Source: Harmothoe impar (lineage: Eukaryota; Annelida; Polychaeta; Phyllodocida; Polynoidae). From it: a DNA stretch of 64,000 nucleotides. Of the stretch, positions 22,031 through 53,952 are shown in pieces. Position 1 is the first letter of the stretch; each line of letters opens with the position of its first letter. A program made the translations under genes and the position numbers. The notes under the pieces were generated by a model, which worked only from the letters and a program-made list of their open reading frames with translations, did no database searches and was not told the DNA's origin. Location: positions 18,328,784-18,392,783 of the forward strand of contig OX381706.1 of the NCBI GenBank assembly GCA_947462335.1, written 5' to 3'.

Positions 22031-22289
22031 TCAAATGATATGAAAAATAGCCTAATTTAAGCGTCACTCTCACCACTTAGCCTATACGCTACTCATTGAC
22101 TAGGATAGTATACTAGAAAGTTTAAGTGTGTGATTGATATCACAAATGACCCAGAGTAAGGGTGATTAGTGATTGAACTGATTGAAAGATTGATGGTACA
22201 CCATTTCAGGAACAATAGTGCTTGAACTGCGAGCAGTGCAGAGGAATGAAAACATGGTCCACATCAAGAGACTATATATGATTTTGAGT

Positions 22290-23135: not shown

Positions 23136-24636
23136 TTTATGCAGAGGACTGTGACCCATCTAGGGAAAAGACTCCTTCAGGAGGGATTGTTTGTGCTGGC
23201 TTTGGCCACCAGGGGGCACCAGAATGGCTAAAGTGTGCAAAATTCAATTAAAATGATAAAGGATGATTTTTGTGTAGAACTTGCTAGAATTATGCTATCT
23301 TTACTGCCAATGTTCCATATTTGGAATGCAAAAAGGACGTTTTTATGGACAATTAGTACATAAGACACTTTCTAAGTGCCATGGGAGCCATTCCATAACA
23401 CAGAATTGGAGATAATTGTACTAATTGTGTGTAAACGCGGCGTTATGTTCCTCCCAACACTACATACCAATCTGGCCGAGGTAAGTTCAATTTTGCCACT
23501 CTTTAGCTTTTGCTGGTCATGTGATACCCTGTGAGCGATTTGATTGGCTGCTTGGGGGCAGCTCTCCAAACATATGTTTAGTCATTTTTTTCACTAACAT
23601 AAATTCTATGTATTACTGAACGGTTATGAGCTTCATGTGAGACTCCTATATAAATAGAGCTAGTCTATTTATTTTTCAGAAATTTGGAAGGAATAGATAC
23701 ACAATCTGTGATAGGTCCTTGGTGATATGTCTTTAGTGGCCTCATCAGGTGTAATCTAGGGGTGGATGTATTTCTTTTTATAAAGGAAATTTTTCATATG
23801 GGTGCCTTACCAAATGAATACTCCTCTTGTTGACCTGTATGGTTTACCAAACTATGATGATTCAGACTTAGTGTGCCAGGTGGCTCTGGAGTGCATAGCA
23901 AAATGGCTACTCCTTAACCCAGGTAGGGGAACTTAACGATATAGGCCTAACTTAATGTTGTCGGTCAAAAAACGTATGGAGCTTTTGGTTAGACCAGTGG
24001 GTGCTCAGGTGAGGATTTTTCTTTAACAATTATTTTTACCGGTTGGGATATTTTCCAGTGAAAGAAAATGTCCACATATGCCGATAATTGTGCTAATTTC
24101 TTGTCAGTGAAATTTCCCTCTAGAACCAAATTTAGACTTAAAACCCCGGTTTTATTTGGTTATTTATCAATAAACCAGATTTTTTATAATTATGGGATGC
24201 AAAGCTTTTAATGCTTATTTACCATTTTCAGTTAGGGCAAAAAAAAGAAGGTTTGTTTAGCCCATGATATCTCATTTTAAAGGATATGCCACCAACTTTA
24301 AATACTAATTGCTTCTCAGATACATGCGTGGATAAACGGCATTACACTTATACATACATAATTATATATACACATAATTATGTGTGAATCAGTGCATGTG
24401 AGTCACACATTGATTGCGCTGTAAGGTGTAATTGCTGTAATGTTATACCATATGTGTTGTGCCAAACGATGCAAGCCGAGTGTCATGGTCTCCTATTAAC
24501 CTGTATGTTAATGGTTTGATGATAGTTATATTGTGTGCATATTGATGAGACTAGTCAACATCTTTACATACATGAAGTATCCTGTCATGTAAGCTCATCT
24601 TTTGAATCATGTACTGTATTTTGAAAATCACTTGAT

Positions 24637-32000: not shown

Positions 32001-35000
32001 AATGCCGTGCAAATAACTCAGAGGTTCTGAATGATGTAAGAAATTGTCTAAATAGCCATACATTGGCCACCCTGTGGGGTTTATGATATACTGACAACAC
32101 ATATTATACTTGGAAACAGGGTAGGGATGTGAACGTAGAACGGGACGTAGAAGCAGATTTTAAGGGTTAACGTCTGGACGATCCACAACTGGCTGAGCAG
32201 AACAACCTTTGCCTTATTACCACTTGCATGTATGATAATTGTAGAGAGGCTTGCATCGTACTTGTTTTCTTGTGGTTCACCCATCGAAGCCATAGACAGC
32301 ATCCATTTATGAATGGTGCATTATCAGCCTTGCCCTACTGATAATTCATCATTCCTGTGTGTTTGTTTGCGTAGTTTACCGTCTCAATCGACTATGCAGA
32401 GGAGGCTTTCTCAAGTTCAAGTTTTCCAAAGGTCAAGAATAATTGATAATTGTATTCAAAACAATATTGTTACGGCGTAAAGCAGAGCACCTGAGACAAG
32501 AATCCTATATATTAATTAGTTACCTAGGTAGTATGCTGTAGAGCAGGACCTCTACTTTTTTCTTTTCCTCATTAAGTTCAGTCGTGCGGCCAGCCACCAG
32601 GTCCTCCAGGTTCTCTGCATGTTCCTCCAGCATCTGGATCATCTTGTCAATCACGTTCAGCGGTCTAGAAACGATATATAGGAATAGAGAATATAATTCG
32701 ATGTAGGTGTGCTAGGAACGAATAATGACCGTGTCGGGTATAACGTAGGAGCTTGGGTTCTGGATTTCCAGGCATTCACTTGCGACAAGCCAAATGTTCA
32801 CCCGCAATATTAAATATCGTAGTTTCAGGATGATCTTCGTTAAAAGGCCAGATGAACTATATAGGAGAAGTCTTGAGTACCGCCTGTCCAGAGTTACACA
32901 ATGACACGAGAATTTTGAATACTAGAATAGCATGGAATTATCAAAATATTCAGGACCAATTGCCTGATCCCCTAATGCGGTGGAGGATATATGAGATAGG
33001 TCATGTACATGTACTACCGACATGTCACACTATACTTAATATAAGAGAAAAAGAAAGCCCCCATTCACCGTCCACCATTGATGTCTATGAGGAATTTGAT
33101 GACTTTGTTGAAGCTGGGCCTCTTCTCTGGGACCTCGTCCCAACATGACGTCATCAAGTGTCGCCACAAGTCGCAGCAGTCGTCTTGAGGTACGGCGGGT
33201 CGGAATGGACACGGCAAACCAGCCCCGACCTTTTCAATGATCTCTGTACAAGTTAGAACATAGGAAGAAAGAATTTAGTTAGCCTACACGGAAAAGTAAT
33301 GGAGTCAGAGCCATTGTCCAGACTCTGGAAGGTGAGTCCAGCATTGCCAGGCAATATTAGTATTCAGAGAGAGAGAGGGAGAGTCCAGCATTGCCTGATA
33401 TTTATGAGTTCAGTATTGCCCTCACTTTTTTGAACGAAATCTTAAAACTCTAGATGAGAAACCCCACTTTATACAGGTACAATTCATGTTGATCTGATCA
33501 TCCCTTTGAAGACGGAATGAATTAATATATCATGCTCCTAATCGTCTTGATGCATGAATGCAGCCCTGGCAAGTAACCGGCTAGTGCTGCATTCAAGCAT
33601 CATGACGACCCGGGGTTGAGACACTCCCAAAGTGTAAGGACGATGCAGCAATGGCGAGTAACTTGCCGGGCTGCATTAATGAATCATGAAGACAAATGTC
33701 ATCTTTTAGCGATTCTTGTTTGGTCAGACATTTGCAGAAAGTTTATGAAGTGTGGCTGACCTGAGTACTCTAGTTCTGTGTCCCGTGCATAGGGTCCGTC
33801 ATGGAGCGCTATCTCCTGCAGAATGATGCCATACGCATACACGTCCCCCGACGCCGTCCCGTATGGACCAGGGGGTGCACGTCTCAGTAGTTCGGGACTC
33901 TTCCACAGGAGGGCTGCAAGTTTAGGGTGAGATACACTGTTGATCTAACAATGGTGAATTTATTCTGTTTTGAGCAAGGTGGTCCTTGTACGTCATTCTA
34001 TCAATGGGCTTTATTAGTCATGTTGCCATGGCAACACATATCAACAAGGACACCCATTTAGGCGTTGACAACTTCTTTTTACATTGCAAATATGGAAGGT
34101 TTATACTGAAATTGGAAGTACCCTATAGAGCAAGTTCTGGTATGTTCCCATCCTTGGTGGCTAAGGTTGGTACACATGTTCTTATCCCTCATTTCTGCTT
34201 GACTCACATATATATAGAGCAAATAACGAGAGAAAATGATACAGGAACGGAATATAATCAAATAGCTGCACAATTATCTTTTTAATTCAATTAACACAGA
34301 GATTAACGGCAGCAAACTTGCCATGAAGGAAGACTTATAGACAGCAACCATGCACATGCTCACAGAAATAGTTGGTGGTGTCTGTTTCATTGGTGGAGCC
34401 TGCCTTGAACCTGGCCAGTCCGTAGTCTGTAACCTTACATATCCACCTGCTGTCCACCAGGCAGTTGGAGCTGGTCAGGTTACCATGGGAACCAAAGGGA
34501 CTCTCGTGCAGATAGGCCATCCCCTGTCACATAAAATGAAATGGAGCACTTTGTTCCAATGCATTCGCTATGAGGAGTGGGCACTGGTTTATTCATGGGT
34601 GTTATAGAGTGTGCTCGGTGTATTGAAATTGCTTTGTTGCAGTGTGCATGCATTTTAGAATGGAAACAAGGTATTTGCTTTAACATGGGATCAACCTTAA
34701 AGTCCATATTATCCCAGGTTAAAAGGGTTGTATTTAGTGTACCTACTTTCTATTATCAAAAGACTGAATATAGAGATTTAGGCAGATTGTCTAGATTTAA
34801 ACCAGTTATTGCCGCACATACACCTTGGTTGCCGATTTATTGATTATTGAAACTATATGTATCTGACCTGATGCAGGTACAATTCATTTATCATTATTAT
34901 CTTAAATAACTGTCACACTTTGGGTGTGAGCGTATATGATTATCTCTTCATCTAATACATTTATTTCACTTTATTATTCTGATGGAATATTTCGTTAAGT

Positions 35001-38000
35001 TAAGCTACATGAATATATATGCTCCTTTCTGTTGGCTGCCATTATTTTGGCCTTAAGATACCAGTTATTGTGTTGAATATCATTCAATTATACACGGCCT
35101 ACCTTGGCAATGTCAGTCGCTATTCCAATCTTGAAGTCATTAGAAAGGTTTATATCCTCGTTTTGAAGTATATCCTGCAAGTAGCAATTAGCATAGTCAA
35201 TGAATATAATCATAAGAGGCCTACAGACCCTCCCAAGGATCCAAAAGTTTAGCATTACCAGACTCTGACACAAGGGTTCAGTCGCCCAGGATTGCCTGAT
35301 TCTCGTGAAATGCCTGATGTTTGAGAGAATTCTTCTTGGAGGCCTTTCGAAGTAAGTGATTGAATTTTATATGAGACATTTGTCGCTAAAACTATTGAAA
35401 GACAGTGTATATTAGAGGGATCGTTACATCGTTCTACATTGGCTACATTGAAATGCAATTTTGAAGACATTTTCTTACTTTTACCCTTTTTTGGTCAACC
35501 TTAGGGTCTTCGGAAACGCTGGCTAGTACTTTCATGTTAAAAAAAAATAAAAATACGACCTACCGACCCTACGTTTTCTTGCCATGTTACCTGAAACATA
35601 TACATTTTTTTGGCCTTACCTGAAGACTGCCTTTTTGTGCATAGGACATGACGATGAAGACTTTAGGCGCCTCTGTACAGGCCCCCACAAACTGGTTGAT
35701 GTTCTCATGGTGTAGGCTACGCATCTGGGCATGGACAATGTAAAGAGGAACTAGCATTTTGAGTCTGATGTTAACGTATCTTATTTATACTGTATAAAGA
35801 TAGGATGTCTAGATTCACATTTGTATACTATTGAAAATGACATATAATAGTATGTGCTGAAAGTAGCAGGACATTGTATTGTGTAGCTATTATGATGAAA
35901 GACAAGTAGGGGAGTCTTAAATGGGCGATAAGAATTCTTGTAGAGTTCGTCTATTATTTAGTTTTGAATTAAATTATTTAGTTTTGTATTAAATCATTTT
36001 GCTTTTGTGTGTGAAGCCCTTTTCTTTAACACAATGACACAACACGGGGTACTATGTTGTTACATAATACACCTTAAGAATTTCGCAGTGAAGTCAAGGG
36101 AATTATTTCATTAGTCGGAAATGTATTCTGTCAAACGCCTATACAAGAGCTGTCATGAGGTGTATCATAAAGTACTTACATTTTTCATTTCGGTTAGAAT
36201 CCCAATGTCACGAACATCAACTGATGGCTTGTTCAGCTTTTTCAGTGCCACCATCTTCCCCTAAAGATAAAATGGAATTTCATTACAGTTGTATACCGTT
36301 GCTGGGATTGGTCTACCTGTATGGCTTTATACAGTAGGACATTTTAGCAGCACAAAGTGAGTACACATCACCAACAATGGTCTGTCGGAGTTGTACCTTC
36401 TCACTGAATCATTCAAATACATCAATGGCACATCTCTAATATACAAGGTACGCCGTGGGGCCAAAAAAGAGAGGTTTGTTTCAGGTCACCTGACCGACCC
36501 AGAACAGGGCCGACCATACGTTTCATATGCAACTTTGACATTTTGACATTTTTACCCTTTTTTTGGTCAATTTTAGGGTATTCAAAACAGTTGGTTAACA
36601 CGTTCATGCTAAAAAAATAAGTTAAAAAAAATTCGACCTACTGACCCGACAATTTCCTCCCATGTTACCTGAAACTAGCCTTTCTTTTGGCCGACGTACA
36701 CAATGGGATTATAGTTGTAATAATGCATCTCTATAAAGCTATGGTACAAAAGGTATAAGCCTTTCCTGCTTGATAATCATTTCAAATATAATTTACCCTC
36801 CTTGTGCCATGAAAGAGCCATGCACCATTGCATGGATTGATCAAATGTGTAGCTACCAGTACACGTCTACATCCCCCAATACCCGATGTATTCTGCGTCA
36901 TTCTCTGCTCTACTGTAGACTATGGTGTAGGACTGGAATCCAGTCTGGCATGTTAGAGTCTCATTTATTAGAGATTAGAGTACATCTATCCCCAAACAAC
37001 ACTCAACAGTTAAAACATTTAGCATTCACTATGTAATTACACTGCCTCATCCTGGTTGATATGAACTAACATGAATGACCGGAATGCTCGTTTTTCCCAG
37101 CGTTTTTCTACTATTGTTTACAATGGGTGTCACTATCCATTTATCCTATTCTTATTGAAAGTCTACAGTTATTTATAATAAATACGCCTTGTGTTACAAA
37201 GAAATGCTTCATTTCTTAAATATAGGGTATACATATAATGCATCTACATTGCATGCTATTCTTTATCGGTCATAGTCAGTTATTTATCACTATGAATATG
37301 CATGGAAATCAATGTTGAACAAGAATGAATGAATGAATGAATGAATGACAATTGATTGGTCATCAACATAGACCTACACCGATCATCACCAGACACAACC
37401 ATCTCTTAGATATATACACCTGTTCCCATGAGAACCCTTATATAAGACACTATACCTGTTTTTCTTGTTAGGAGAATGCCCTTCTGAGGGTGGATCATCT
37501 AAGGGGATGAGGACCTACATGACAGTGGTATACATAGTAAGGTAATACAACAGGTGAGGTATGGGGTGACCCCACCTTATGGTCTATACCTTTGTAGTCA
37601 GCCACTTCAGAACCCCTATATATTGACCCACCCTTCAGGGGTTGCCTTTCTATCTATCTAAACATTTTAAAGCTTCTCGTAAAATCGATTTAGTGACAGC
37701 ACTACATGGCCAGTTATGGCTAGTGTGTATGGTAATATGGAATTCGCCTGATATGAAGATGCATATGGGCGGGAAGAAGCGGGGGAGAAAAAGAGGAGAT
37801 TTGGGTTTATTGAGGATGGATAAATCTGTGAATGCACCGACGCATGTACAAGAGGACACCTTCAAAGTGGAGGGCACAACGGGGTAAAACTATACTACTT
37901 CAAAAAGGATATATACCAACCACCCACATAATTTGCGAATTTCGCCCCCCTCCCCCGACTGGTCTGATTATCCCTTTTACGTATTGTTCATGGTAAGAAC

Positions 38001-41000
38001 TATCTTTGTCCTCGCCAAAAAAGTCGCTATCTGTATAGAACTTTATTAGCAAAATTACATGTAAATTCTTGGTGAGAATGCTGCTTTGAAGTGTATTTTG
38101 TTCTACAATTTCCTCCTACCCCCGCCACTGCCCCCTACACGGTATGACCTGCTGTACCTCGTCCTCCTGTATGTATTGGCGTCTTGATGTCTAACATTGA
38201 CTTCTCTCTCCCTTTACTCATGTCCTTGTCTGCTAGTTCAGGCTAGCATTAAAGGAGCGTTTGGACCATGTGGTTAGCGACTGGAAATACCCACCACCAT
38301 GCTACCAAAGAGCAACAAATGTTCTTTGGTGCAACCCAGATCCAATGCAGGACCATTGAATTTTGCTAACTTCAAAGAGCAAAGTTCAAGAGGAAATCAT
38401 GACGACATTCTATAGTTATCTATAAAGCAATGTAATGAGGGATGTTGAGACTTTTTGATTGATATATTTTGATAGTGGTGTTGGTTATAATGGGCAGAGA
38501 GTTCCAGGTGAATTTAAATGAATATGAAAGAATAGATTTATTTCATGTAAGAGTTACCCCATAAATGCATGTTTAGCGTATGTGCTAGGAAGCACCAATA
38601 TTGTCTTTCATGTTCACTTCTCAGTGTAGTAGCAGAGGACAGCAACCCGCCATATATATCTACTTATACTTATTCGTTTTTCGCAAGAAAGGGTAAACAT
38701 GCTTAGTCTATGCCATAGATAAAGGTCCTGGCCTGCACTACTGCGGCAAAATGACAGTGCACCATCAACCAAGATAGTGCAACAATGACGCCATACCCTC
38801 CTTGATCCATACCCTGCGTGTACCCTGTGTCTTAGCATCAATATAACGACCTCAACACAACCCCATCACAAGCAGTATTAGCCTGGCTACAGGGTCGGTG
38901 TGTGTGTGCGAGGGAGTGTTTACTTGGTTACGTAGTGTCTGTCCCCACCATTGCCTTCATACATGTATTGTAGGAAATATGAAAATATTGAATGACCTTA
39001 TACTTGCAATGGATTTTTGCCATCGTAAAATGCAAACTCTTACAGTGATGAAAGCCTACACTTGTAGAGCTATAGTATATGTCCCATAGAGCAAGCTTTA
39101 CCTGCGTCATAAAGGACAGTTATGTATACTTCAACTGCAGTAAAACAATGTTATATGAAAGCGTGCGCTTGAGTGAGGAATTGCGTGTGTAAACGTGGGA
39201 TGTAAAGTCTATCTGTTTGAATGCAGCGATCACACAATACATAAAACTATCCACTTAATCAAAAAGCCATACAATAGACAGTCTCTGCCATATGTGCCCC
39301 ATTGCACTCCATTCAATAAGACCTTGAATACCTGGGTATCTCTGTATTATTATATTGAATGCATTGATAAGGTGATGAATATTAATACAAAATTAAAAAA
39401 AATATAAAGTTAAAAAAAAGTCATCTTCATGCAGCTGTGAACAATAGCCCAGCCATGAAAGGGTCATCATTAACTCTTAAACAGTTTTAAAGTCTATCAT
39501 TGATTAAATAACATAAGAAGAGTCATGGTCAAAGATACAATGACTTACTCTGAACAGAGCGACTCGTGTGAAAAGTTGCTCTGGCATGATGTGCTCGCTG
39601 GACCGGATGCTCTTCTGGGACCCGATTATTTGGGACTTGATCATCTGGCTGCCCTGCAATTTAGGAAAATTGATTTAACATAATATTTAGTCCCAAGAAT
39701 TAACAGATGTTTCAGTTTACATTATCTCAAAATGCATGGTAGGTAGGTAGGCTTTATTTTACATTTTACTTAGGCCTAAAAGGTTGTCAGAAATTGAATT
39801 GCGGCAGCGGTAGCGATTCATGGACTACGGCCTCGACTCGTGGATCATTGAATTGACTCTAAAATACCCAAAAAGGGCCTAAAGTAATTTTTTTCATTTT
39901 TTTATGGGGCATTATAAGACCCATTTTCCATTAGCTGATAATGCAAGTCCTGTCGCTCCTCTAACCGACTGATGCACCACTGCTCAAAATGGGACCGGGT
40001 CCCTAGATATGTTATCCACGCTCTATTCATCAAGCAGTAGCTAATTACCTTTTTGAATTATACATAGCCTTAAGCCCAAGTCCATACGTTCATAAATCGC
40101 TTGTAACGGCTGTTCAAACAATTTCCAGTCTGATATAGCTTGCAGGGTATTGATTTTGCATTCGTGAAGGGAGTGGCCCCGGGTAGTGGCTATTCCTCAA
40201 CAACAGCTATGGGCTGGGCGTCTTCCGTGTAATTGATAATAAATATTGATAGCACAAATTTCGCACATTGATGAAGTATAAGCTCCTGGTCTATAAATCT
40301 TCTAGCAATCCATTTCATGTAGACACTGGCACAGCTGATAAACTAAGTGCATGGCTAACACAAGATTTGATCCTTACCATTCTCCTTATGCTAGTCTGCA
40401 AGTATAAATCGATACACATAATTGAGTCCTGTTGTCGATGCGGTAACTTTATTCCATTAATCAGTATAGCATTCACACCTTTTTTAAACTAGATTGGACA
40501 TCTGTATTCATAGATATTAATTGGGGATGTTATACTACACATATTAAGGTAAAACTCTTTATTTATCTTTTTGGCGATTTTAAGCGAGGAATATCAAGTC
40601 TTAATGGTATCGCTAATCATTGTGCACCAGAAGATGATTCAATGTGTTGGATTATGTGTAACTTTATGTCTGACCGTTTTGAAGCTTGTCTTTCCGGAAA
40701 GCTCACTCCAATCAATCTTCCAACTTGAAATCATATGCAGCTCAGCTAAATCTCGTTTCCGTCTGCATTTTAAGACAACATAGAACCAGTAAACATTAAG
40801 CAAGATTTGCATCCAGTAAAGTGAGATATACATAGATGTAATATTATGCCTTGGGTCATCATGCTTTAAAGAATTGAACATTCAATTACAAGATAAATGC
40901 CTTAGATAATATCATAACAATAAAATAGTTCTTATTTGATACACAACAGACAAGAGTACTACATCCCATTTTAGGAAATGTGTGTTAGCAGTAATGGTTA

Positions 41001-44000
41001 TGAATGTTTACAAGATAGGGGTACAGAAGGTATGATTGGTAGTCAGCGACATCACCATGTTGTACATGTATACTAATGACAAGAGTCTGTAACATCCGAC
41101 GATACATGATCATAACATCTCCCATGTCTCCATTCTCATTACTTGAATACCTGTACTGTATTTTTGAAAATCATTTCATGAATAAAAATACTTTATAAAT
41201 TCAAAAATTCAAGGTAAATGATTTGGTATTAAAAATGTGTACTTACTTGTATACCAGGAACACGGTTACGACACAAACAATGATGAGGCCTGTGAGGGCT
41301 ACAACTGTGATCATGGTGTAGGCCTCTGTAAAAACAAACACGCGTCCAGCAATCACCTCCACACTCAGCATCATCACCATTTTTAAATAGTTTTATTGAC
41401 AACATTTCAAATCTATTTGAGACCAACTTGAGTTTTTCTTATAATTTTTTTCAGCACTTTTTGAATGCACACATCCTTTTGGGTAGAAACAATAGTAGAA
41501 TGAAACAGATTTTATATTTTTATTTTATAGAGAACATTATAAGTAGATATAGCCCCATGCATGTCAGGGGTGGATCCAGGGCGGGGAGTCATGGCGGTCT
41601 GCCCCTTTGAAACAGCAAAAATCCTAAATATAATGTATTTTGATCCTTGACACTTTTTAGTACTTCTTTAGCGTTTAGTGGACCCCCACCCCTCTTTTTT
41701 TTAAATTGATCAGATTACACCCCTGTGCTTGTATGTAACATGTATAAATATAACAGAAATAAGCATTACGTGTGTTGTCCGGACAGAGTTCATTGTCCCA
41801 GCCACAGGGCGGAGAGTCAGATGGGGGTGAGGTCCTGCCTCCCTTGAACCTGACCCCTGGGTGGGGGACCCTGTGTAGGCGTCCTTCCCGAGCGTCCCAC
41901 CAGAACAGGGTGTGCCACTCATTGTCCCTGAAGATCTGGATGACGTAGTCTGCCATCCTGTCACCCTGACTGTTTACAAGTACGTCACCAGTGATACCTG
42001 TGGTATAGGGACCGTATGAATTACGTCACACAAATATGGCCAATTTTGAACATCCACCCACCCCCTAGCTGCCACGCCTTCTCCCATACTTTCATCATTG
42101 TACGTCACACCCAGAACAAAATCTCCAGCATGACGTAATTTATGGAAGGTAGCATCCTCAGATCACATCGGATAGGGGCCACACCCTCTTCGATCTCTGC
42201 AGTATTATATTTTCTTTTGTAGGCAAATTATAGAACCAATGTATCATCCTCCCATCACATCTAATAGGGGCCACTCCCTCTTCTATCCCTGCAGTAATAA
42301 TTATGTTAACATTTGTATTATGATTGCTTATGATACACTGATGCTATTGGGCATGCTATTATAATAGTACATTGTACGCCCTAAATGGTGAGTACAAGTA
42401 CAGCTGATTTACATGATAATTCTCTTATAGCCCTAATGTAGTATATACACATGTAATTGGGGTTGGGGACACACCCACGTACTATTCACACCATATGTCA
42501 TGTATGGTACCATTGGAAAGAGACCATTTCGATCTATATTTTAGGGGGATTTACAAACTAAAATCATTCAGATATCATGCAGTGAACATGCCACATTCAC
42601 AAAATACCTTTATTGGGACCCTATTTCCGAATTTTCTGTTAGATTTGCTGATAAGAATAAACATACAGAGTAGTAGCATAGACACTGATATATCACTGCG
42701 TTTTGGTTTTATGTCCTAATAGAATGGTAAGGTCACAAAAAGGGAAACTCATAAGAAAGTGTGGGATTCTCTCTCCCAACACATACCCTCAGTATTGGTA
42801 TAGATAATATCCATTTTTCTGTGATTACAGATAAGGCACTGAAGGGGTGCACACCTTCCCATGGGTTAATGTTCATGGTCTAATGATCACACCAAATGTA
42901 CCAATTAAATGGTACAGCCAAGAACCATGCACAGTACCATAATACTGGTATATTATAAAGTAATTTAGAGGAATGTACCACAATAGTGGTACGTACCAAC
43001 AATATATCCCTATCCCCTACCATAGCGCCTAATGTTAAGAGATTCTTTAGGCTGATTCACAAAAATAAATTACATGTTATGCTTTTTAAAAAGGACATTG
43101 AAATTGGAAATATCACCAGAAACATTAGTAGTAGGTATAATGCCTTGTCATATCCATGATTAGAATCCATGTTCAATGCAATATACCTCAGATTCACAAA
43201 GTAGTTTAGCATGCAGGAAGCATATTCAAAAATAAATTTATGTTTAAACATGTGGAAATGTACATCAAAACTCATACAACAAAATAAGATTAATGTAGAC
43301 ATGTTTGCCAAAAAACAATCTGACCTTGGAAGGTGATATTGAGGATGTTCTGTGTAATGTTGTAGCCATCGTCGTACCGACCACCGTTCTCCACTGTCCG
43401 ATTCACTCCCCATGCCCACTGCAGAATGGCGTCATGTAGAAACCCAGCATGGACGTCCACCTGTATGGGGTGGGATACAACACTAACTCATAATGGTCTT
43501 CTAACAAATCATCTTTACTCCTGTGGGGGTTGATTCACAAAAGGAAAGTAGTGTATAATGGAAAAAAAGCGTGTTCAAAAATGTGTTTAAACATGTGGAA
43601 AAGTTCATGAAAATGGTGTTCAGGTCAGTAAAATCTTCAAGTGCATGTGGTTTGTCGTTCATAGATAGAAATATTTTATACCAGCTGTTTAAACTTTGTG
43701 AATCAGCCACCTGAGAGACCTATTCGGCTTCAGGAAATAAATGACAACTAACAAAAAATCGTTATTTTACGTCAAAATAGATTTAGGGGTTTGCTCAAGG
43801 AGGGACGGGAGATTCTATATAGGAGACCATCCCGGAAATTTACCCCGAGAATTTAGCCATATCTTTCACGTCCTTCCCCCTGACCCTAACGCATTGTGTA
43901 ATCATCTCGAATTCTAAACCTACTGTACTTTGGGAAATAACTTCGTCAAAAAAACTTAAAGTCACTTCATGTGATAGGCCTGTGTCCACTTGAATTTATT

Positions 44001-46133: not shown

Positions 46134-46164
<31 letters not shown>

Positions 46165-46195
46165 GTCTCTGTCTCTGTCTGTCTGTCTGTCTCTC

Positions 46196-46267
<72 letters not shown>

Positions 46268-49200
46268 TCTCTCCCCTCTCTCTCCCCAGATTTTGTATTA
46301 GCCACCAGGTGCGTCAGTGCTTAAGTTTCTTGCCCCACCCAAGCACTGACGATATATATTGAATAAGCCCCTGATGTGTATAAGTGCCTGTGGAAATTTG
46401 GCCTCCAAAGAGAATGGCCTTCCATAAAGTGTGTTATCATGTTCATGGCGCCATTGTTCTCTTGTATAAGGGGACTAACAATATTTGTACGCCTGGCAGC
46501 TCTCTCATGCATCATCTACATGTTCCTATACCACACTTGGACAGGTATACAATCCATACAATGAAAGTAATTAATAGTGGTATAAACCAGTTATATCGGC
46601 ATGGATGGTCATGGCTAAATACACCCGAGCCTTGATCTTGTGCATACACTGCCAATATAATGAATATAGAGCTGTGGGTGTGGTATAATTACTAACTAAT
46701 CTGTGCTATGACGACACACGTTTATAATATTGTTTTATCATTATTTACGTAAAATATATGAAAACCGAGGCCAAGATCCTTTAAAATGTATACCGTAAAA
46801 CCTTGCGTACAAGCCCAACTCGCGTATAAGCCACCTAACGCTGCACAGAGAGAAGAAACAGCATCAAAATGGAGTCCAGGTTCCTCCAAAATGACTCCCC
46901 AGTATAAGGCAGTCCAGGTCGCCTAAGAGAGCCTAGGTGACTTTCTGAGTGACCTAAGGGAGTCACCTCGGGGAGTCATATAGCTCTCTGGGCCATATGA
47001 CTCACCCAGGTGACTCCCTTAGGTCAGCTAGAGTCAGCTAGGCTCTGTTAGGCGACCCTAAAAAGGGGAGTCATGCTGGAGGAAACCTGGACTCCCTTTT
47101 GACGCTGTTTCTTTTCTCTGTGTTGAGAATCATATAAGCCTCACATGGGATCTGATTATGGCTACTTTACTGTAATATACATCTAAACTTAAGCCACACT
47201 GGCGATCTGACTTGCGTACTAGCCACGGCCTATATTATGCGTAAGGTTTTACGGTGATCAACATTAAAAGCGAATCTATACCCCCCATACACGTATAACA
47301 CCACCCCTGCTGCACTGCTATTGAATTCGAAGTATTTGTCCAATATTCTGTCAGTTATGCCCACCGTCCACAGAGCATAAATTGGCCGTATGTGGATAAA
47401 ATTGCCCTATATTTCCTACGCAAATTGCGTATATATATAATAGCCGATTTATGCTCTGTGCACGGTGGCCCTATTAAGGGGAATCGGTGCTTACCGGATC
47501 CTTGCTTGTGAGCTTTGGTAGAGATGAATCGTTGAAGACAGGATTGTTCATCTCCTGCCTGACCTGTCGCTTGAACTCTTCCCATTCTTCACCCTCGGGT
47601 GCTGACAGTTTGCAACAAAGCAGCGGGTTACACAATTTACATCACTAAAGTTGTATTTGTATTTTTAATGAAAGATTAAATAATTTAAAAATAGTGGGAT
47701 AAAATACAGTTTTATGTCATTTGGTATGTTGGAAATTGTAAATAGGCTATAACTATGTAGGCCTACCTCCCTCCCATTGTTAATCTAATCTCTTGTAACG
47801 ATAATCGCTGGATGCGATAATTAGAGTAACTCTATGTCCCTGGCCCATTAGTATAATAGTCAGAGTTGGGAGGAGAGAATGTGATAAATATGGGTGATCA
47901 AGAGACAATGATAACAATTACATCCCTCGTAGCAAGCCCACTTGGGGCCAATTCAGGTTTTGCCTGGGTTTCAGGTTGGGCAGATGGCCGGGTACGAAAC
48001 AATATCTACCGCCCTACCCCTCTGTTGTTAAAATATAACCACTCTCTAATTACAATTCAAAAAAACAGCAAATATGGGATTAATTCTTAAACCATTATTT
48101 TCCCCCAGTGGCGCCACGCGGCCAAATTGGGCAGCCTGGTTAGAGCCCAAAGCGAACCAAAATTAATTAGCCCAAGTGGGCCCACAGCAACAACCAATGA
48201 CCAATCCCCTTGGTCTGATGCCAGGCAGCCCACTTGGCCCCCCGTGGGCCCACCTTGTGGAGTCACATTTTGTCCACATGCTACAAAGTGTCTACACACA
48301 TTATCAAACTCTTTTTGGGAACTTGATTTATTTCTTCAGACAGGAAATTGGCAAGGTCCTTTATCAGTTTTGATAAGTACATTAAAAAGGATCTCATTAG
48401 CCCCGCAATACACATAGACAAATGTCAACCCCCCTTGATACCATCTTTGCCATATTTCACGAGGGTGGTCGGGGGGGGGGGGGGGGCTGGGGCCATATTC
48501 CACGAAGCCACAGGCTTTTGTTACTGATATTTATTGTCAGGGTGGGTCCAGAAGTTGCCTGTAGGGTGAAAACATCCTTTTTGATAGCAAAGATATTATA
48601 CTCTAAATGAAAACACAAGTCATTTTTACAGCACCAATTTGTGTCTTTCAATGACCTGCGAGGACCCTGTGGACACTTTGTGGCCTGTGAACAAAACGTG
48701 ACTGCAAACACCTCTACAAGTGATGTAGCCTTTAATTCACTATTCGCCCCCTAGGTTACCTACGTTTGGCGTTAGCAGATAGGTGGCCTTCAAATGACTG
48801 GAGCGTAGCATTAGGTCGGTACTTGCTGAATCGGGTGGCTATCAACAAAAAGATGCATGCTACTCTTTTAAGTTCAAAATTTGAAATGAGATAAAGTGAA
48901 ACAATTATTTTACCTATAGTCTTATCCGCTCTTTCTTTATGAAGTCTTTATTTTAATGTATTATTAATACTGTTACATTAATAACAGGTAGATGTTAAAA
49001 TTTGCCTTCTGGAACTTCTAAGTAGATATACTAGAATAAGTATTTGTGCATCTTCCGAAAGACAATACTAGTTATTCGATTGCCAAATGAAAATATTTAA
49101 AACTCAAACTCATAGGCGGGTTGTCTATTGGCTCTTTCGGAATTGACAACTTCCTTCTCGTGGGTTCAGTTAGTGCACACTAGAGCTATTTCTAGACTGC

Positions 49201-52200
49201 AAAGGTAGTGTATTAATGTGCACCTTCTACATATTATCAAGAGCGAACATCATGATCAAAATTTCAAATTGAAATCTGATGAAAATTACTGACTAATCAA
49301 GCAAAATAGGAGATACCGATGTCTTAATACACCTTGACACAAAGTTAGTTTAAATGGGTAATGTTAATGAGAAATGGTCAAAAATGAACAGTCATAATTA
49401 TAAACCCGGTTGTAAACCCACATTGAATAGCACATATTCAAAAACAGATCTGGGACCACGGCACATATACAAGTATTTTTCACGTATGGTGCGGATGACA
49501 CATCATTGACAAAATTGATTCAGTATAATTATTACAACTACTATATAACTATATAACTACCTAGGAATCCTGATCAATACTATAGTCAAACCTTGTAAAA
49601 AGTATCTACTGACTCAAATAACAACACAGACACCACTCTCACCCAAAACTGGCAACAAGACAAACGATAAGTGGCTACTGTGCAAAGGGAGGGGGGTTGT
49701 TGAGGCCATCATCCTCATTAAAGAAGTAAAAAGTTATCATAGTTGACAGATTTTAATCCTAAAGCTCTTGTTTATCTTGCCATATCCAAAATCAGAAGAA
49801 AGTCTTCATCAATGTCAGTTTACATTCCCAGTATGAAAATACTAGTCATCGATATACTTTAAAAAAAACTATTATTTATCAACAACCGTCGAACATGCAG
49901 TACTATATACTATCGCACTGCTGAGCACACAATCATTTTTTGTGTAAATTGTACTCTGCCAATATATAGGCCATAAATAGCACTTTAAAAAGGTATGCTC
50001 TTGAACAGAGTATACGTACTTCATTAATTGGAAAGGTAGACTTACAAGGGTCGGCATCAAAACTGATGAACACGTATTCTCCATTATGCATACTGTGATT
50101 GTGGGTGAAGAGCAGAAACCGCATCAGGTCCCGGGGGTACATGCAACATATGATGACTGTAGGAGCAGGAAAGTATTATTTACATAGTAGTATTAACGCT
50201 GATGTATATAGGCCTTGTCTGGGGACTGTTACGGAAAACAAAGTAAGAAATAGCGTGAATATAGCAAATTTACGTCAACGATTAACGTTATTCAATAACT
50301 CACGCTAATACCAGCGTGTATTTGATAATTAACGTTAATGTCTTCAAATTTACATTAATCTTTTCAAATTTACGCTGTTTAGGCTAAATAATTATCAGCA
50401 CCATGTCTGAAGGGGTGCCAATTTTTACGTGAAAATTTACGTTGATTAATGTAAAATCAACATCGTTAATTCTTTCTGTAACACCTATTTGGGAAAAGGA
50501 ACTTTCTGTAACACCCTATACTTACGTTGTTAAACTTACATTGTTTATTCAGTAACAGCCCCCTGTTTATATATGTTTTATCATGGCATTAATTGACGTT
50601 GGTAGTGCTGATGAATTCACTATACCATTCCGATGATAATTGACATCGACAATAGATTATTAAACAACAGTTAGGTGGAACAGAAATGATAAATTAAGAC
50701 CATTGTTTTTTATTCTATGACGACCCATTTATGAAACTCTCATATGGAATAGAATATACAAAAGAAAATAAATCAATTTATATAATGTTCCTGCCAGTTT
50801 CCAGGCAGCAAATCGCGGAAGATCAGCCTCAAGCAGGCCCCCATGTTGTAATTTTATTTTCTGTTTTACTTCCAAAATAAATTCTAGTTGCCGTCATGAA
50901 ATAAATAACAAAGGGTCAGGACAATATACGTCTGATATATGAATCCATCCAGCGTATACGGGCTTTGTAAGTAGAGCTCTGGGTAGTGAAATAAGTGTAG
51001 GGATTGGACATGGGGTGGCCAGGAACAGAATTTTATTATTTGGGAAACAATATGGGAAAGACTACTCTTAATGTCTTATGCAAATATCTTTTCGAAAAAT
51101 GACAAACATGAAGTCTTCATAATACTGATGCACGTTTAATATTAACCGTTAGATTTAATCAAGTTCAGATTCACTGAAATATCAATCTAACATACATTGA
51201 AATAACAAAAAGCTGTTTGAAAAAAAGTGTCAAAAGAGGGTTCTAAAGATAGACTGCCATAGTCAACCGACGGATAACGATTCATAGATCAGGAACCTTA
51301 AGTTAACACATAAACAATGGAATATCTCTCAGAGCAGATACGTGGAGCAATTGAATTCTGCTTGGAGAGTGTATCATGGGTCTGTCTTACCATGGTCCCA
51401 GTCTAATGTTATAAACATATAGTCGCCATTGTGCATGCCAAGGTCGTAGGCATGAAGGAGAAGACGCGCCTCGTCAAGCGGATACATGCACAGGATGACG
51501 ACTAAGGTCAAAAGGCAAAGGTCAGGAAAAGGCAAGGTCAATGTTAAGGTGATATACCCGAGGAAGAAAAGCGGACGTCATGGAATGGACGTATTTTTGA
51601 GTCATGCACATGCAATGAGATTTCCTTGTCACCAATGGGGATTTCTTTCTTATTTAAAAAAACGGGCATAATGTCCTTTCTATATTTACGACATACAGAG
51701 ATGATTTTATTCTTTTTCTAAGTCATACAAACACAAAACGATGTCTTAATGATCACAGAGTCTGCCACAGCATCGGCATTGGGATTCATATAAGATACCA
51801 CTATATCGTAGACCTCGTTGGATATACCTAGTATAATTGATCAAATGTGTCTATTCTTGTGCATCACCTTATAGATTGCTATAGGAAAAGTGGGCATAAA
51901 ATAATAAAATAGCATGGTTATGTCATGTATACCTTTACCTAGATTTATTCAGTCAAAATCAATAAGCACCATTTTAACGATCAATATTATACCCCATCTG
52001 GGTTACACCTGGGCTATCTTCATAGCAAAATGTGGTATAAAGTGTGGTCTGATGTTATCTTTCTAAAGACTCAGGACATATGTAGGCCTATATAGCGGGT
52101 CGTTCATGTCAAGTATGTCATTAATAAATGTTTATCAAACAACTGATTGTCGATAGAATCTATACGTTGGACCAATATATGAACACATGGGTCAGACATG

Positions 52201-53952
52201 ACCTAATTTGAGTGTTATCAATATTAATGATTATTGTGTTGACAATTCGGCTGAGTCAATAGATGCATGTTTGGAGTATAGGCCTTACTATAGTATAGGG
52301 CAGTTATGAAAGCATATGCGCTGTCGATCCCTGGACCTCCCCATCTTTTAGAGGTGGTGTAGATATGTGAGACAAAATTGCATTTTTTACAGCATACCGA
52401 ACTAAGCCAATTTCAGACTACACCGGTGTGTCGACCAATTGTATTTTCTTTAGTTGAGCTAAGAAGAGATGGCGCCACAAATCAAACGGCCATGTTTAAA
52501 TTGGAACACAGCGTGATAGTGTATAAGAGAAATGGAGTAGGTATTACTTGTGTAGGCATCTTGGCTGCATCAGCTAATATTTTCTCTCGCGAATATTAAT
52601 CCAAATAGCATAGCGTGATTTGAGACATGATATTTGTGGATGGTATTTCAGCAGGAGGCAGGTTGGCTGGACTGTCCTTATGAAATTCCAGCATTCACAG
52701 ACTTTACATAGTTTGGCAATGCTGGACTCTCATTTCAGAGTCAGGCAATGCTGGACTGCTCAGAGTCTGACAATGCTGGACTCTCGACTTTTAGAGTCAG
52801 GCAATGCTGGACTGTAATCAGAGTCTGACAATGCTGGACTCTCTTTTCAGAGTCTGGAAAGGCTGGACATTTTAAGCAATGAAAGAGAGTCATAGACCAG
52901 TGGAAATGTCTGACAGGAAGGAGTGTCGATTTGGCGATATGCAGGGGAGGGGGGTGATGTCAAGTTAAGAATATAGTGAGACGATAAAGGAGCCATAACA
53001 GTGAAATCTATAGTATTTCATTTTAGAAAGAACTGACAGTGGGATACTCTTTGGCCTGGCTCAAAAAATAAGTATATGTACGATGACGATGTGAAAATAT
53101 AAATAATTTTTCATATGAAAATGTAGATCTGATTAACATACCGTAGTGGTTGGTTCAGGTTTAGTATGTAAAACTTATTTAAATACTCCTATATCGATGG
53201 CGCTTATTTGAGACCGGAATTAATTTAAATACCTGGTGTTTGAGGGAGCCATTATAAAAGAGCTACTCACTTCTGACCTGGTCCTTGAGGGCCCTGACCA
53301 CCTGTTCCTGCTGTCTGAGCAGCTCATCCACCACCTCGTCCCCCTCGTAGACGCTCCGCATGGCGTGGAACTTCACCTCCTTGCCGTTCCGCTCCAGTTC
53401 TGCGGCTATAGCCTTACAGGTAAGATGGTTGATGTTCTGGTCGGTGGTCACCACACCGACCCGCTCCCAGCCGTTAAGCTCCACCCACTGGTCGAACATG
53501 GGCGCTAGTGCCAGCCAGGTCCCCACTGTGCGGGAAAAGGTCGGGTAGGTGAACTTGTTGCTGAGGCTCTCCGAGGTGCAGCCGAACGACACGAAGGGGA
53601 TATTGAGCGCGTCGGCCATATTGGCAACGGGCTCGCAGACCACGCTACATGCGCTACCCACAATGCCATGCATCTCAGATTGGAAGAGCGACCACATATC
53701 CATGGTCATGCGCATGCCCTGTCGCGAGCGGCAATGGTCGTCCCGCCATTCCCATTTGAGAGTGAGGTTATCCGGGAGGAGGGAGAGCTCCTGCACTTTT
53801 TTCACCCCCAGGACAGCACCTCCGGCCATGTATGGCCCCAGCTCCCACTCCCGCGTCCAGGGGATCAGGATACCCAGGTTAATGTCCTCCCCTGCCACTA
53901 GGGGCACCACCAGGCAGCTCACCAAGAGCAGCTCCACCAGGTGGCGTGCCAT
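25957..53952 (-). CDS. Receptor (particulate) guanylate cyclase, natriuretic-peptide-receptor type, 21 coding exons plus one alternative exon
   Basis: The exons join without a stop into 3090 nt, 1029 residues. Order: signal peptide (1-21), ANF-receptor ligand-binding domain (about 24-410), a juxtamembrane Cys segment ([11 protein letters not shown]), one membrane helix (about 425-446), kinase-homology domain (about 500-755), a coiled-coil linker (about 765-805) and a class III cyclase domain (about 810-1000). The pseudokinase keeps the VALKK lysine but has HGNL for HRD and DYG for DFG. The cyclase keeps both metal aspartates (D834 in SDIVGFT, D878), the guanine-selecting E874 and C946, and N953 and R957 ([10 protein letters not shown]), so it should be an active homodimeric GTP-to-cGMP cyclase at the plasma membrane. 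The ligand is unknown. Exon 2 is duplicated in tandem. I found no exon for the segment that follows it in vertebrate receptors (see findings). Length is typical of the family. Confidence 0.93.
26065..28289 (-). other. Guanylate cyclase intron 20
   Basis: The last intron contains an 815-bp inverted-repeat element (26418-27232). No coding signal was recognised. The other cyclase introns of 400-1100 bp (within 28382-35619, 35725-36179, 39654-41246, 41326-41769 and 41998-43324) show only the short repeats listed separately. Confidence 0.5.
26418..27232. mobile_element. 815-bp inverted-repeat element rich in AAGTGTGTTAA words
   Basis: Termini ACACTCTAAAAAATGTGTGT and the complement of ACACTGTAAAAAATGTGTGT. 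Both halves repeat AAGTGTGT and its complement many times. No transposase and no clear target duplication. Confidence 0.75.
28290..28381 (-). CDS. Guanylate cyclase exon 20
   Basis: It encodes residues 964-994 ([31 protein letters not shown]). The acceptor is ATTTCAG| and the donor AAG|GTAAAT; it leaves in phase 0. Confidence 0.93.
29158..29256 (-). CDS. Guanylate cyclase exon 19: catalytic Asn/Arg
   Basis: It encodes residues 931-963 ([33 protein letters not shown]). C946 selects guanine, and N953 and R957 serve transition-state stabilisation in the family. The acceptor is CCCTCAG| and the donor CTAG|GTAGGC. Confidence 0.94.
29812..29986 (-). CDS. Guanylate cyclase exon 18: second metal-binding Asp
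   Basis: It encodes residues 873-930 ([29 protein letters not shown]). E874 is the guanine-contacting residue and D878 the second metal ligand. The acceptor is CACATCAG| and the donor ACAG|GTAGGC. Confidence 0.94.
31058..31126 (-). CDS. Guanylate cyclase exon 17
   Basis: It encodes residues 850-872, [20 protein letters not shown] then VYK. The acceptor is TTTCAG| and the donor AAA|GTAAGT; symmetric phase 0. Confidence 0.93.
31808..31931 (-). CDS. Guanylate cyclase exon 16: first metal-binding Asp
   Basis: It encodes residues 808-849 ([40 protein letters not shown]). D834 is the first metal-binding aspartate. The acceptor is TCAACAG| and the donor CAG|GTAGGA. Confidence 0.94.
32524..32664 (-). 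CDS. Guanylate cyclase exon 15: coiled-coil dimerisation linker
   Basis: It encodes residues 761-807 ([40 protein letters not shown]). The heptad-bearing helix is the signalling linker before the cyclase domain. The acceptor is GTTTCTAG| and the donor CCTAG|GTAACT; phase 2 in and out. Confidence 0.94.
33069..33243 (-). CDS. Guanylate cyclase exon 14: end of kinase-homology domain
   Basis: It encodes residues 703-760 ([40 protein letters not shown]). [12 protein letters not shown] is the typical last helix of the domain. The acceptor is TGTACAG| and the donor CG|GTGAAT; it leaves in phase 2. Confidence 0.92.
33540..33690. repeat. Dispersed palindromic repeat, copy D (guanylate cyclase intron 13)
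   Basis: GATGCATGAATGCAGCCCTG and GCTGCATTCAAGCATCATGA oppose each other, followed by a second half-palindrome to about 33690. Confidence 0.75.
33761..33913 (-). CDS. Guanylate cyclase exon 13
   Basis: It encodes residues 652-702 ([40 protein letters not shown]). SPE stands for the kinase APE motif. The acceptor is CTTGCAG| and the donor TCAG|GTCAGC. Confidence 0.93.
34364..34523 (-). CDS. Guanylate cyclase exon 12: pseudo-catalytic loop
   Basis: It encodes residues 599-651 ([29 protein letters not shown]). The catalytic Asp of HRD is absent (HGNL) and DFG is DYG, as in other receptor cyclases. The acceptor is GTGACAG| and the donor TTCT|GTGAGC; it leaves in phase 1. Confidence 0.93.
35103..35174 (-). 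CDS. Guanylate cyclase exon 11
   Basis: It encodes residues 575-598, [20 protein letters not shown] then DIAK. The acceptor is TTGCAG| and the donor AAG|GTAGGC; symmetric phase 0. Confidence 0.92.
35440..35615 (-). mobile_element. Inverted-repeat element copy adjoining the exon 10 donor
   Basis: On the minus strand it begins GGCCAAAAAAATGTATATGT then TTCAGGTAACATGG and aligns with the 36459-36692 element; the far end is truncated or diverged. It starts immediately after exon 10 and GTAA. Confidence 0.7.
35620..35724 (-). CDS. Guanylate cyclase exon 10
   Basis: It encodes residues 540-574 ([35 protein letters not shown]). The acceptor is TGCCCAG| and the donor CAG|GTAAGG. The +5 and +6 donor bases belong to an inverted-repeat element that begins right there. 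Confidence 0.93.
36180..36260 (-). CDS. Guanylate cyclase exon 9
   Basis: It encodes residues 513-539 ([25 protein letters not shown]), including the VALKK lysine of the pseudokinase. The acceptor is CTTTAG| and the donor AAT|GTAAGT. Confidence 0.93.
36261..39548 (-). other. Guanylate cyclase intron 8
   Basis: No exon was recognised. It holds a 234-bp inverted-repeat element (36459-36692) and a short (GAAT)n tract at about 37322-37348. Otherwise nothing notable was seen. Confidence 0.5.
36459..36692 (-). mobile_element. 234-bp inverted-repeat element, intact copy
   Basis: The ends GGCCAAAAAAGAGAGGTTTG and the complement of GGCCAAAAGAAAGGCTAGTT are followed on both sides by TTTCAGGT and CTGACC/GGTCAG. 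No unambiguous target duplication. Confidence 0.7.
39549..39653 (-). CDS. Guanylate cyclase exon 8: start of kinase-homology domain
   Basis: It encodes residues 478-512 ([30 protein letters not shown]). The serine-rich stretch corresponds to the phosphorylated, glycine-rich-loop region of NPR-type receptors. The acceptor is ATTGCAG| and the donor AGA|GTAAGT; symmetric phase 0. Confidence 0.9.
40675..40762 (-). CDS. Guanylate cyclase exon 7: juxtamembrane W-x-V/I-x-W segment
   Basis: It encodes residues 448-477 ([29 protein letters not shown]). SSWKIDW matches the LWRVRW signature just inside the membrane in NPR receptors. The acceptor is ATGCAG|. A nearer donor (TGGA|GTGAGC) would break the frame into exon 8, so ACG|GTCAGA was chosen, which leaves in phase 0. 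Confidence 0.82.
41247..41325 (-). CDS. Guanylate cyclase exon 6: transmembrane helix
   Basis: It encodes residues 422-447, [20 protein letters not shown] then TVFLVYK, a single hydrophobic helix followed by a basic stop-transfer end. The acceptor is TTTACAG| and the donor ACAA|GTAAGT; it leaves in phase 2. Confidence 0.92.
41565..41728. mobile_element. Candidate short element with CAGGGGTGGATCCAGGG end
   Basis: The left end CAGGGGTGGATCCAGGG opposes CACCCCTG at the right. The same word (complement of CAGGGGCGGATCCAGGG) occurs at about 30908-30927 next to a C run, so a dispersed family is likely. Confidence 0.45.
41770..41997 (-). CDS. Guanylate cyclase exon 5: end of ligand-binding domain and juxtamembrane Cys pair
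   Basis: It encodes residues 346-421: [20 protein letters not shown], then [11 protein letters not shown] and [18 protein letters not shown]. The two cysteines match the juxtamembrane disulphide hinge of the family. The acceptor is ACCACAG| and the donor ACAC|GTAATG, phase 1 in and out. Confidence 0.93.
42150..42300. repeat. Direct duplication, period about 93 bp
   Basis: ATCACATC(G/T)(G/A)ATAGGGGCCA with CCCTCTTC(G/T)ATC and CTGCAGTA occurs twice in intron 4. Confidence 0.7.
43040..43320. repeat. GCTGATTCACAAA repeat, downstream side of exon 4
   Basis: GGCTGATTCACAAA, CAGATTCACAAAG and TTTAAACATGTGGAAATG recur here and in the stretch at 43505-43710. The two lie on opposite sides of guanylate cyclase exon 4. 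Confidence 0.55.
43325..43460 (-). CDS. Guanylate cyclase exon 4
   Basis: It encodes residues 301-345 ([34 protein letters not shown]) with sequons. The acceptor is CATACAG| and the donor is the weaker CAAG|GTCAGA. Related GATTCACAAA-containing repeats lie on both sides of this exon. Confidence 0.92.
43505..43712. repeat. GCTGATTCACAAA repeat, upstream side of exon 4
   Basis: The left end GTTGATTCACAAA opposes TTTGTGAATCAGCC at the right, a terminal inverted repeat. The interior TTTAAACATGTGGAAAAGTT matches the 43040-43320 stretch. Confidence 0.6.
45150..45245 (-). repeat. tRNA-derived SINE-like head
   Basis: The minus strand reads GGCCAACACGGTATAGTGGA then a box B GGTTCGATCC, with spacing of a tRNA gene. 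The anticodon stem does not pair normally and the sequence continues into non-tRNA DNA, so a tRNA-derived repeat is likelier than a functional tRNA. Confidence 0.5.
45478..45541 (-). pseudogene. tRNA-Val(CAC)-like fragment
   Basis: The minus strand has TGTTCGCCTCACAC (anticodon CAC), then CCCCGGTTCGAATCC and GTGGAAAC, matching the 3' two-thirds of tRNA-Val. The 5' third with the D arm and acceptor half is missing or unrecognisable, and the T stem has a mismatch. Confidence 0.5.
45791..45920. repeat. Long palindrome (arms about 58 bp)
   Basis: AATAATACATGGATAACAGG at the left and CCTGTTATCCATGTATTATT at the right continue inward to a CCCTCGGTGC-TTC-GCACCTCGGG centre with few mismatches. Confidence 0.85.
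45985..46290. repeat. CTGT/CT microsatellite
   Basis: (CTGT)n at 45985-46085 passes into (CT)n to about 46285. Open frames in all phases are artefacts. Confidence 0.95.
46793..47254. mobile_element. MITE with CCGTAAAACCTTGCGTA termini, copy 2, carrying a nested foldback
   Basis: The left end CCGTAAAACCTTGCGTACAA and the right end GCGTAAGGTTTTACGG are inverted copies shared with the 7924 element. TA is present on the left but TG on the right, so the target duplication has decayed. The middle is occupied by another palindromic element. Confidence 0.65.
46844..47122. mobile_element. Foldback element inside the MITE
   Basis: Nearly the whole 279 bp is one imperfect palindrome: CACAGAGAGAAGAAACAGC at the left and GCTGTTTCTTTTCTCTGTG at the right, and inside GGAGTCCAGG/CCTGGACTCC and GACCTAAGGGAGTCACC matched by its complement. 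Arms are about 130 bp. Confidence 0.7.
47495..47601 (-). CDS. Guanylate cyclase exon 3
   Basis: It encodes residues 265-300 ([35 protein letters not shown]). The acceptor is CTGTCAG| and the donor CCG|GTAAGC, phase 1 in and 0 out. Its first residue is Ala after exon 2a and Ser after exon 2b. Confidence 0.88.
47602..50045 (-). other. Guanylate cyclase intron between exon 2b and exon 3
   Basis: No further coding exon was found, although vertebrate receptors have extra sequence at this point. A pair of inverted 30-bp words (GTCACATTTTGTCC... near 48268-48300 and its complement near 48660-48705) and a G run at 48471-48486 are the only structures noted. Confidence 0.45.
50046..50156 (-). CDS. Guanylate cyclase exon 2b (alternative copy of exon 2)
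   Basis: 111 nt, phase 1 at both ends, acceptor CTCCTACAG|, donor CCTT|GTAAGT. It encodes [20 protein letters not shown] then [17 protein letters not shown], identical to exon 2a at 19 of 37 positions. Either copy joins exon 1 to exon 3 in frame, and inclusion of both also stays open. Open reading, conserved Cys, Tyr-Pro and MHNG residues and good splice sites argue against a pseudo-exon. A 342-bp inverted-repeat element lies just upstream in the transcript direction. Confidence 0.85.
50221..50562. mobile_element. 342-bp inverted-repeat element between guanylate cyclase exons 2a and 2b
   Basis: The left end GGGGACTGTTACGGA opposes the complement of GGGGGCTGTTACTGA. AATTTACGTTAA-like words recur inside. 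It starts about 65 bases upstream of exon 2b in the direction of transcription. Confidence 0.6.
51391..51501 (-). CDS. Guanylate cyclase exon 2a (first of a duplicated exon pair)
   Basis: 111 nt, phase 1 at both ends, acceptor CCTTAG|, donor CATG|GTAAGA. It encodes residues 228-264: [20 protein letters not shown] then [17 protein letters not shown]. It belongs to the second half of the extracellular domain, matching the position of the V-x-I/L-C...NGDYVF segment of the family. Confidence 0.92.
51502..53270 (-). other. Guanylate cyclase intron 1
   Basis: No third copy of exon 2 was seen here. It carries a tandem array of GAGTCAGGCAATGCTGGACT-like units (about 52690-52870). Confidence 0.55.
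52690..52870. repeat. Tandem GAGTCAGGCAATGCTGGACT array
   Basis: At least five degenerate units of about 33 bp. The same word in either orientation occurs at 33330-33420, 35255-35320 and inside the hairpin at 59047-59160. Confidence 0.8.
53271..53952 (-). CDS. Guanylate cyclase exon 1: signal peptide and distal ligand-binding lobe
   Basis: It starts [20 protein letters not shown], a clear signal peptide, and continues through the first half of the ANF-receptor domain ([62 protein letters not shown]). It ends phase 1 at AGA A|GTGAGT and encodes 227 residues. Base composition is richer in G+C than the flanks, as usual for a coding exon here. Confidence 0.93.

Follow-up and report, generated by a model that had tools for sequence, protein, structure and literature searches.

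The receptors of solved structure closest by sequence to the one described here are the natriuretic peptide receptors NPR1/NPR-A and NPR3/NPR-C. NPR1 scores 350 bits against 374 residues stitched from the intracellular exon pieces of the present gene, and binding of a natriuretic peptide by its product is only putative. Unlike the natriuretic peptide receptors, this receptor carries Ser and Thr at the class C amino-acid positions, and its gene contains two copies of one block of ectodomain lobe 2. To our knowledge, most invertebrate receptor guanylate cyclases are without a known ligand. The Venus kinase receptors of invertebrates differ in carrying a tyrosine kinase where this receptor has a guanylate cyclase.

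The Venus flytrap of GABA-B1 offers a further comparison. Its Trp65, Ser130, Ser153 (as Thr) and Tyr250 recur in this receptor, as does Trp278 in one copy of the block (2a) only. In contrast, His170 and Glu349 are replaced here, and the cyclase has one transmembrane stretch (called by eye), whereas GABA-B1 is a seven-transmembrane receptor; we know of no duplicated exon in GABA-B1. As an exon arrangement, the pair described below resembles the type represented by Snap25 exon 5 (PMC2581893), in which internal, neighbouring, homologous exons share length and phase (criteria in PMC3228551). Exons of the Snap25 type are mutually exclusive, and exclusive use is presumed here. Tandem exon swaps are a known kind of arrangement; what is new here is that one cassette takes in the two lobe-2 ligand positions of the fold. 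Within a partial set of open-licence literature, taken as titles and the beginnings of abstracts, no duplicated or mutually exclusive exons were described for a receptor guanylate cyclase.

The gene lies in a window of 64,000 nucleotides of the polychaete Harmothoe impar (contig OX381706.1, positions 18,328,784 to 18,392,783), the whole stretch of DNA analyzed; searches of the genome covered 1.51 Gb in 736 contigs. It was modelled through spliced alignment of P0001, a receptor cyclase of 1064 residues and the only protein retrieved from the 7996 candidates that were scored. The alignment used 2a for the duplicated block, and 21 of its exons were kept. The terminal exon it proposed (27029-26946) was dropped in favor of one found by motif and joined in phase 0. 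The gene occupies the minus strand and has 23 exons counting both copies, as follows:

53271..53952, minus strand: exon 1, 682 nt, with the start codon, a signal-peptide-like start (judged by eye) and the first part of the ANF-receptor domain
51391..51501, minus strand: exon 2a, 111 nt, phase 1-1, the first of its 37 residues coming from a split codon
50214..50566, no strand assigned: dispersed repeat of 353 bp in the intron between 2a and 2b, its end some 57 nt upstream from the acceptor of 2b
50046..50156, minus strand: exon 2b, 111 nt, phase 1-1, a block of 37 residues
48764..48838, minus strand: exon 3, 75 nt, phase 1-1, from the spliced alignment
47495..47601, minus strand: exon 4, 107 nt, entered in phase 1 and left in phase 0
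43325..43460, minus strand: exon 5, from the spliced alignment
41770..41997, minus strand: exon 6, end of the ectodomain (GITGDV...), from the spliced alignment
41247..41325, minus strand: exon 7, transmembrane segment (by eye), from the spliced alignment
31058..40762, minus strand: exons 8 to 18, kinase-homology domain, linker and beginning of the cyclase domain, in the two groups below
40762-40675, 37653-37576, 36260-36180, 35724-35620 and 35174-35103, minus strand: exons 8 to 12
34523-34364, 33913-33761, 33243-33069, 32664-32524, 31931-31808 and 31126-31058, minus strand: exons 13 to 18
29986-29812, 29256-29158, 28381-28290 and 26064-25957 (with the stop codon), minus strand: exons 19 to 22, remainder of the cyclase domain, then the C-terminus

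The reading frame is open with either copy and encodes 1045 residues either way, so that the open frame proposed in the earlier note stands, while the length of 1029 residues given there does not. Inclusion of both copies yields 1082 residues, in frame and open, and omission of both yields 1008. A model lacking the 75-nt exon 3 gives 1020 residues. Direct splicing of exon 2 to 47601-47495, perhaps what the earlier note used, is in frame and leaves out a segment that P0001, P0002 and the paralogue on contig C1 all have; it was rejected, the missing segment being supplied by 48838-48764 in the spliced alignment. Another candidate from early scans, 48825-48760, was dropped because its phase is wrong for the homologous frame.

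Along the chain, matches to PF01094 (157 bits), PF07714 (158 bits) and PF00211 (229 bits) follow in that order, and ANF_receptor, kinase-homology, HNOBA and Guanylate_cyc all score above the Pfam cut-offs. The hydrophobic stretch of exon 7 aligns to that of P0001, the transmembrane call itself being made by eye. Over 1030 residues the protein shares 52.5% identity with P0002, named atrial natriuretic peptide receptor A by its source. The ANF-receptor ectodomain, kinase-homology domain and cyclase domain are thus found in one chain, in agreement with the family assignment made earlier; as read from its sequence, the gene is intact and codes for an animal receptor guanylate cyclase with a predicted cGMP output. 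Two tracts of simple sequence lie in its introns, in intron 1 a minisatellite with six units spaced at about 28 bp (52706-52872) and a GA-rich microsatellite in intron 4 (46084-46320) that opens long false frames.

Both copies of exon 2 were reproduced on the minus strand with the length, coordinates, phase and splice sites reported before, each having an AG acceptor and a GT donor. The spacing, put earlier at about 1.2 kb, measures 1234 nt, and the recount of identical residues again gave 19 of 37, the split first codon included; at the nucleotide level, 67 of 111 positions are identical. The pair is internal, adjacent, equal in phase, similar in length and homologous, and each member has its own splice sites. 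Ranked among the gene's modelled sites, 2b has acceptor 9 of 21 and donor 17 of 22, and 2a has acceptor 19 of 21 and donor 13 of 22. The dispersed repeat between the copies occurs at 39 other places at 77-84% identity (40 scored of 268 candidates) and contains imperfect inverted arms; lying so near the 2b acceptor, it could affect splicing.

A profile of the exon-2 family, built from six blocks with 2a and 2b among them, was scanned across 27-54 kb on both strands. It scored 100.7 at 2a and 100.5 at 2b. Elsewhere the best values were 8.7 (minus strand) and 12.2 (plus strand), and three shuffles peaked at 2.0 to 13.3; no third copy was seen in the scanned interval. Independently of the profile, a tblastn search of the window with P0001 matched both exons (E 0.005 for 2a, 0.079 for 2b), and 2b as query matched the exon-2 blocks of the paralogues on C1 (E 6.8e-6) and C21 (E 3.3e-5). 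The resemblance is therefore not due to chance. A chance likeness or pseudo-exon is ruled out by the profile scan together with the codon test and decay simulation that follow.

Pairwise codon maximum likelihood on 2a and 2b gave an omega of 0.05, and neutrality was rejected (2dlnL 20.3 against omega 1). Identities at codon positions 1, 2 and 3 number 24/36, 27/36 and 14/36, so that the copies differ at 22/36 third positions and only 9/36 second positions, and synonymous sites are near saturation. The pair of 2a and C1 alone gave an omega of 0.33 with a 2dlnL of only 2.8, and the fit for 2b and C1 was degenerate. Branch models that relax either copy recently, fitted with a quick optimizer, do as well as a single omega (lnL −486.8 with 2b evolving neutrally along a short, recent branch, −486.2 with 2a relaxed, −488.1 with one omega) and leave room for recent relaxation of either 2a or 2b. 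Decay was also simulated in 20,000 runs under a simple substitution model, one copy being neutral and 2a held fixed. Retention of at least 18 of 36 residues, absence of a stop and presence of both splice sites coincided in 0.00025 of the 20,000 runs at half the third-position divergence, and in 0.018 at d 0.4, 0.079 at d 0.3 and 0.23 at d 0.2; the simulation thus accommodates decay of one copy if a smaller neutral divergence is assumed.

The relatives of the block point to the age of the duplication. Exon 2 of the C1 paralogue is also exactly 111 nt long and in phase 1-1, and exon 2 is therefore an old unit. No direct repeats of at least 25 nt linking the flanks of 2a and 2b were listed, in a repeat search too coarse to list the exons themselves; together with the saturation of synonymous sites, this makes the duplication look old. 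Residue identities out of 37, given for 2a and 2b in turn, are 15 and 14 to C1, 16 and 13 to P0001, 21 and 19 to P0002, and 13 and 12 to C21, so that 2b is farther than 2a from all four, by 1, 3, 2 and 1 residues. Among the 18 sites at which the copies differ, a relative is matched by 2a only at 7, by 2b only at 5, by both at 2 and by neither at 4. Codon constraint, near-saturated synonymous sites and like distances to the outgroups make it most likely that 2b is a functional exon and the pair alternative.

Single blocks are found elsewhere. P0001 and P0002, distant relatives from the database, have one block per protein. One exon-2 block each was found at C1 (in the stretches read), C21 and C5, three of the four receptor-cyclase-like loci examined, C21 and C5 being classed as such from ectodomain pieces; at the fourth, on C2, the block was not located in the 29.8 kb downstream of the match. 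C1 at 58.4 Mb and C6, metabotropic-glutamate-receptor-like by motif, were left out of this count. No tandem second block was seen at C1, C21 or C5; the C5 block was recognized by eye and scores low, so that a diverged second copy there could be missed. From the single blocks at these loci, the duplication looks specific to the lineage of this gene, or else was lost elsewhere.

Placement of the block in the ANF-receptor-fold ectodomain, claimed earlier, is supported by the domain match and by the ectodomain alignment. The position of the 37 residues relative to the ligand cleft, which the earlier note left partly to structure prediction, could be assigned by sequence alignment to the side of the inter-lobe cleft that lobe 2 forms. 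A profile built on the ectodomain matches NPR-C (112 bits), NPR-A (104) and GABA-B1 (100); when only exon 1 and 2a are used, GABA-B1 (37 bits) and NPR-C (36.5 bits) score alike. The alignment to GABA-B1 is ungapped through the block, and a single offset of 47 fits chain residues 203 and 231, 28 apart, to Tyr250 and Trp278, which a review (passages of PMC7411975) describes as lobe-2 ligand residues critical for agonist binding. Their equivalents are block residues 7 and 35, the former Tyr in both copies, the latter either Trp (2a) or Ala (2b). In the four relatives, position 35 is Ala in three and Leu in one, so that the Trp, found in 2a only, may be incidental. The same offset places Trp65, Ser130, Ser153, His170 and Glu349, which we take to be orthosteric residues of GABA-B1: the lobe-1 equivalents of the first four are Trp, Ser, Thr and Val, and that of Glu349 is His. 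Matches at the seven positions thus number five with 2a (Thr counted for Ser153) and four with 2b. The helix end of the block reads AYDLG in 2a and THNHS in 2b. The predicted structure of P0002, taken with two further rows, has a mean pLDDT of 32, too poor to bear on this placement; it shows a strand-helix-strand in the region of the block, where pLDDT is 50-65.

The block of NPR-A equivalent to exon 2 covers approximately residues 210-245 of the chain, outside the peptide-docking residues given in passages of PMC9699598, an in silico study, which span 62 to 187. Taken with the GABA-B1 alignment, this would make the block a fair candidate for part of a cleft pocket and a poor candidate for a peptide site of the natriuretic receptor style. 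In the wider subfamily, the Trp65 position is Trp in this receptor, P0001 and P0002. At Ser130 these three and the C1 paralogue all have Ser; at Ser153 the four have, in that order, Thr, Asn, Thr and Ser. This pattern hints at amino-acid-like ligands for the subfamily.

The length of the exons sets no limit on their joint use: because 111 is 3 x 37, double inclusion and double skipping both stay possible. Exclusion through a too-short intron has no room in a gap of 1234 nt. Competing intronic RNA pairing, sought in this one species, was clearly beyond shuffles in 0 of 21 segment pairs, the lowest z of −1.7 being reached by 2 of 40 shuffles. With neither frame, spacing nor pairing to force exclusion, a splicing-factor switch is the default guess. 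On the Drosophila X chromosome, according to passages of PMC3228551, such features are confined to 90 (0.56%) of the 16180 non-exclusive exons, spread over 6 of 1705 genes, and this rarity gives a prior in favor of exclusive use; a human study warns, in passages of PMC9741552, that many homology-predicted exclusive exons were not true splice events. Mutually exclusive splicing of 2a and 2b is inferred, and the interpretation given in the earlier note is supported in part.

Our best explanation is a model in which exon 2 would have been duplicated in tandem long ago, both copies would have stayed functional, and each mRNA would carry 2a or 2b. Exon 2 would form one strand-helix-strand unit in lobe 2 of the Venus-flytrap ectodomain, and exon choice would exchange both the wall that lobe 2 contributes to the inter-lobe cleft and the helix end. 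With these replaced and the rest of the receptor shared, the isoforms should differ in ligand preference or in the ease with which the cleft closes. The core of the model, that 2a and 2b are both functional and used as alternatives, we regard as probable. Its fuller form, in which the functional alternatives swap the lobe-2 wall of a cleft pocket, is held tentatively, at rather less than even confidence; in that form the ligand would lie in the cleft, and exon choice would affect the response to it. A stricter version, with a class-C-like amino-acid pocket whose lobe-2 wall is swapped by exclusive splicing, giving two small-molecule receptors of different specificity and the same cGMP output, is rather unlikely.

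The probable core is shared by a rival in which the alternative splicing is real and the block, instead of shaping the ligand pocket, serves to adjust folding, the packing of the dimer or trafficking, a peptide ligand being bound at the dimer interface as in the natriuretic peptide receptors. The top ectodomain matches to NPR-C and NPR-A, with GABA-B1 behind them, and the NPR-A docking residues outside the block both agree with it; the retention of the GABA-B1 lobe-1 positions (Trp for Trp65, Ser for Ser130, Thr for Ser153) argues against it, NPR-C having neither Ser nor Thr at either of the two Ser positions. We consider this account a serious possibility, short of an even chance.

Two further rivals were considered. 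In one, 2b is a once-functional duplicate, recently dead or rarely used, and the receptor is made with 2a only. Its low-ranking donor, the repeat close to its acceptor, its greater distance from each relative and the change of A18, D20 and G22, which are kept in all four relatives, speak for it, as does the fit of the model that lets 2b be neutral on a short, recent branch, which equals that of one omega. Against it, the frame is open, both splice sites are present and the acceptor ranks 9 of 21; the family-profile score equals that of 2a (2b being part of the profile), and the mirror model relaxing 2a fits equally well. A dead or rarely used 2b is judged improbable. More improbable still is a receptor with a doubled block, made from mRNAs that contain both copies or take up 2b as an optional extra cassette. 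Double inclusion is in frame and open at 1082 residues and no device enforcing exclusion was found; on the other hand, the block makes up a single strand-helix-strand unit within a compact lobe, one block is what the P0001 and P0002 proteins contain and what the C1, C21 and C5 loci show, and homologous neighboring exons of like length and frame are rarely co-included in the Drosophila X survey cited above.

If exon choice is real, the isoform pair would differ at 18 residues of the block and at the junction residue with which exon 3 begins, Ala when 2a precedes it and Ser when 2b does. A comparison of the two would be a ready-made experiment on whether the block sets ligand choice and whether small molecules are sensed in the cleft. 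The pair would also bring diversification by exon swapping to a receptor family whose growth here seems to have come from gene duplication, as judged from the many cyclase- and kinase-like exons scattered over the genome. Contigs C3, C10, C14, C19, C20, C21 and others carry many further cyclase-like or kinase-homology-like exons, and the receptor guanylate cyclase family is probably expanded in this genome. Downstream of the gene, on the minus strand, lie a minisatellite with a CPHPPA-type repeat that gives long open frames (22166-23176) and an intronless open frame of 423 residues (16503-17771) that matches glycosyltransferase family 92 (PF01697, 143 bits).
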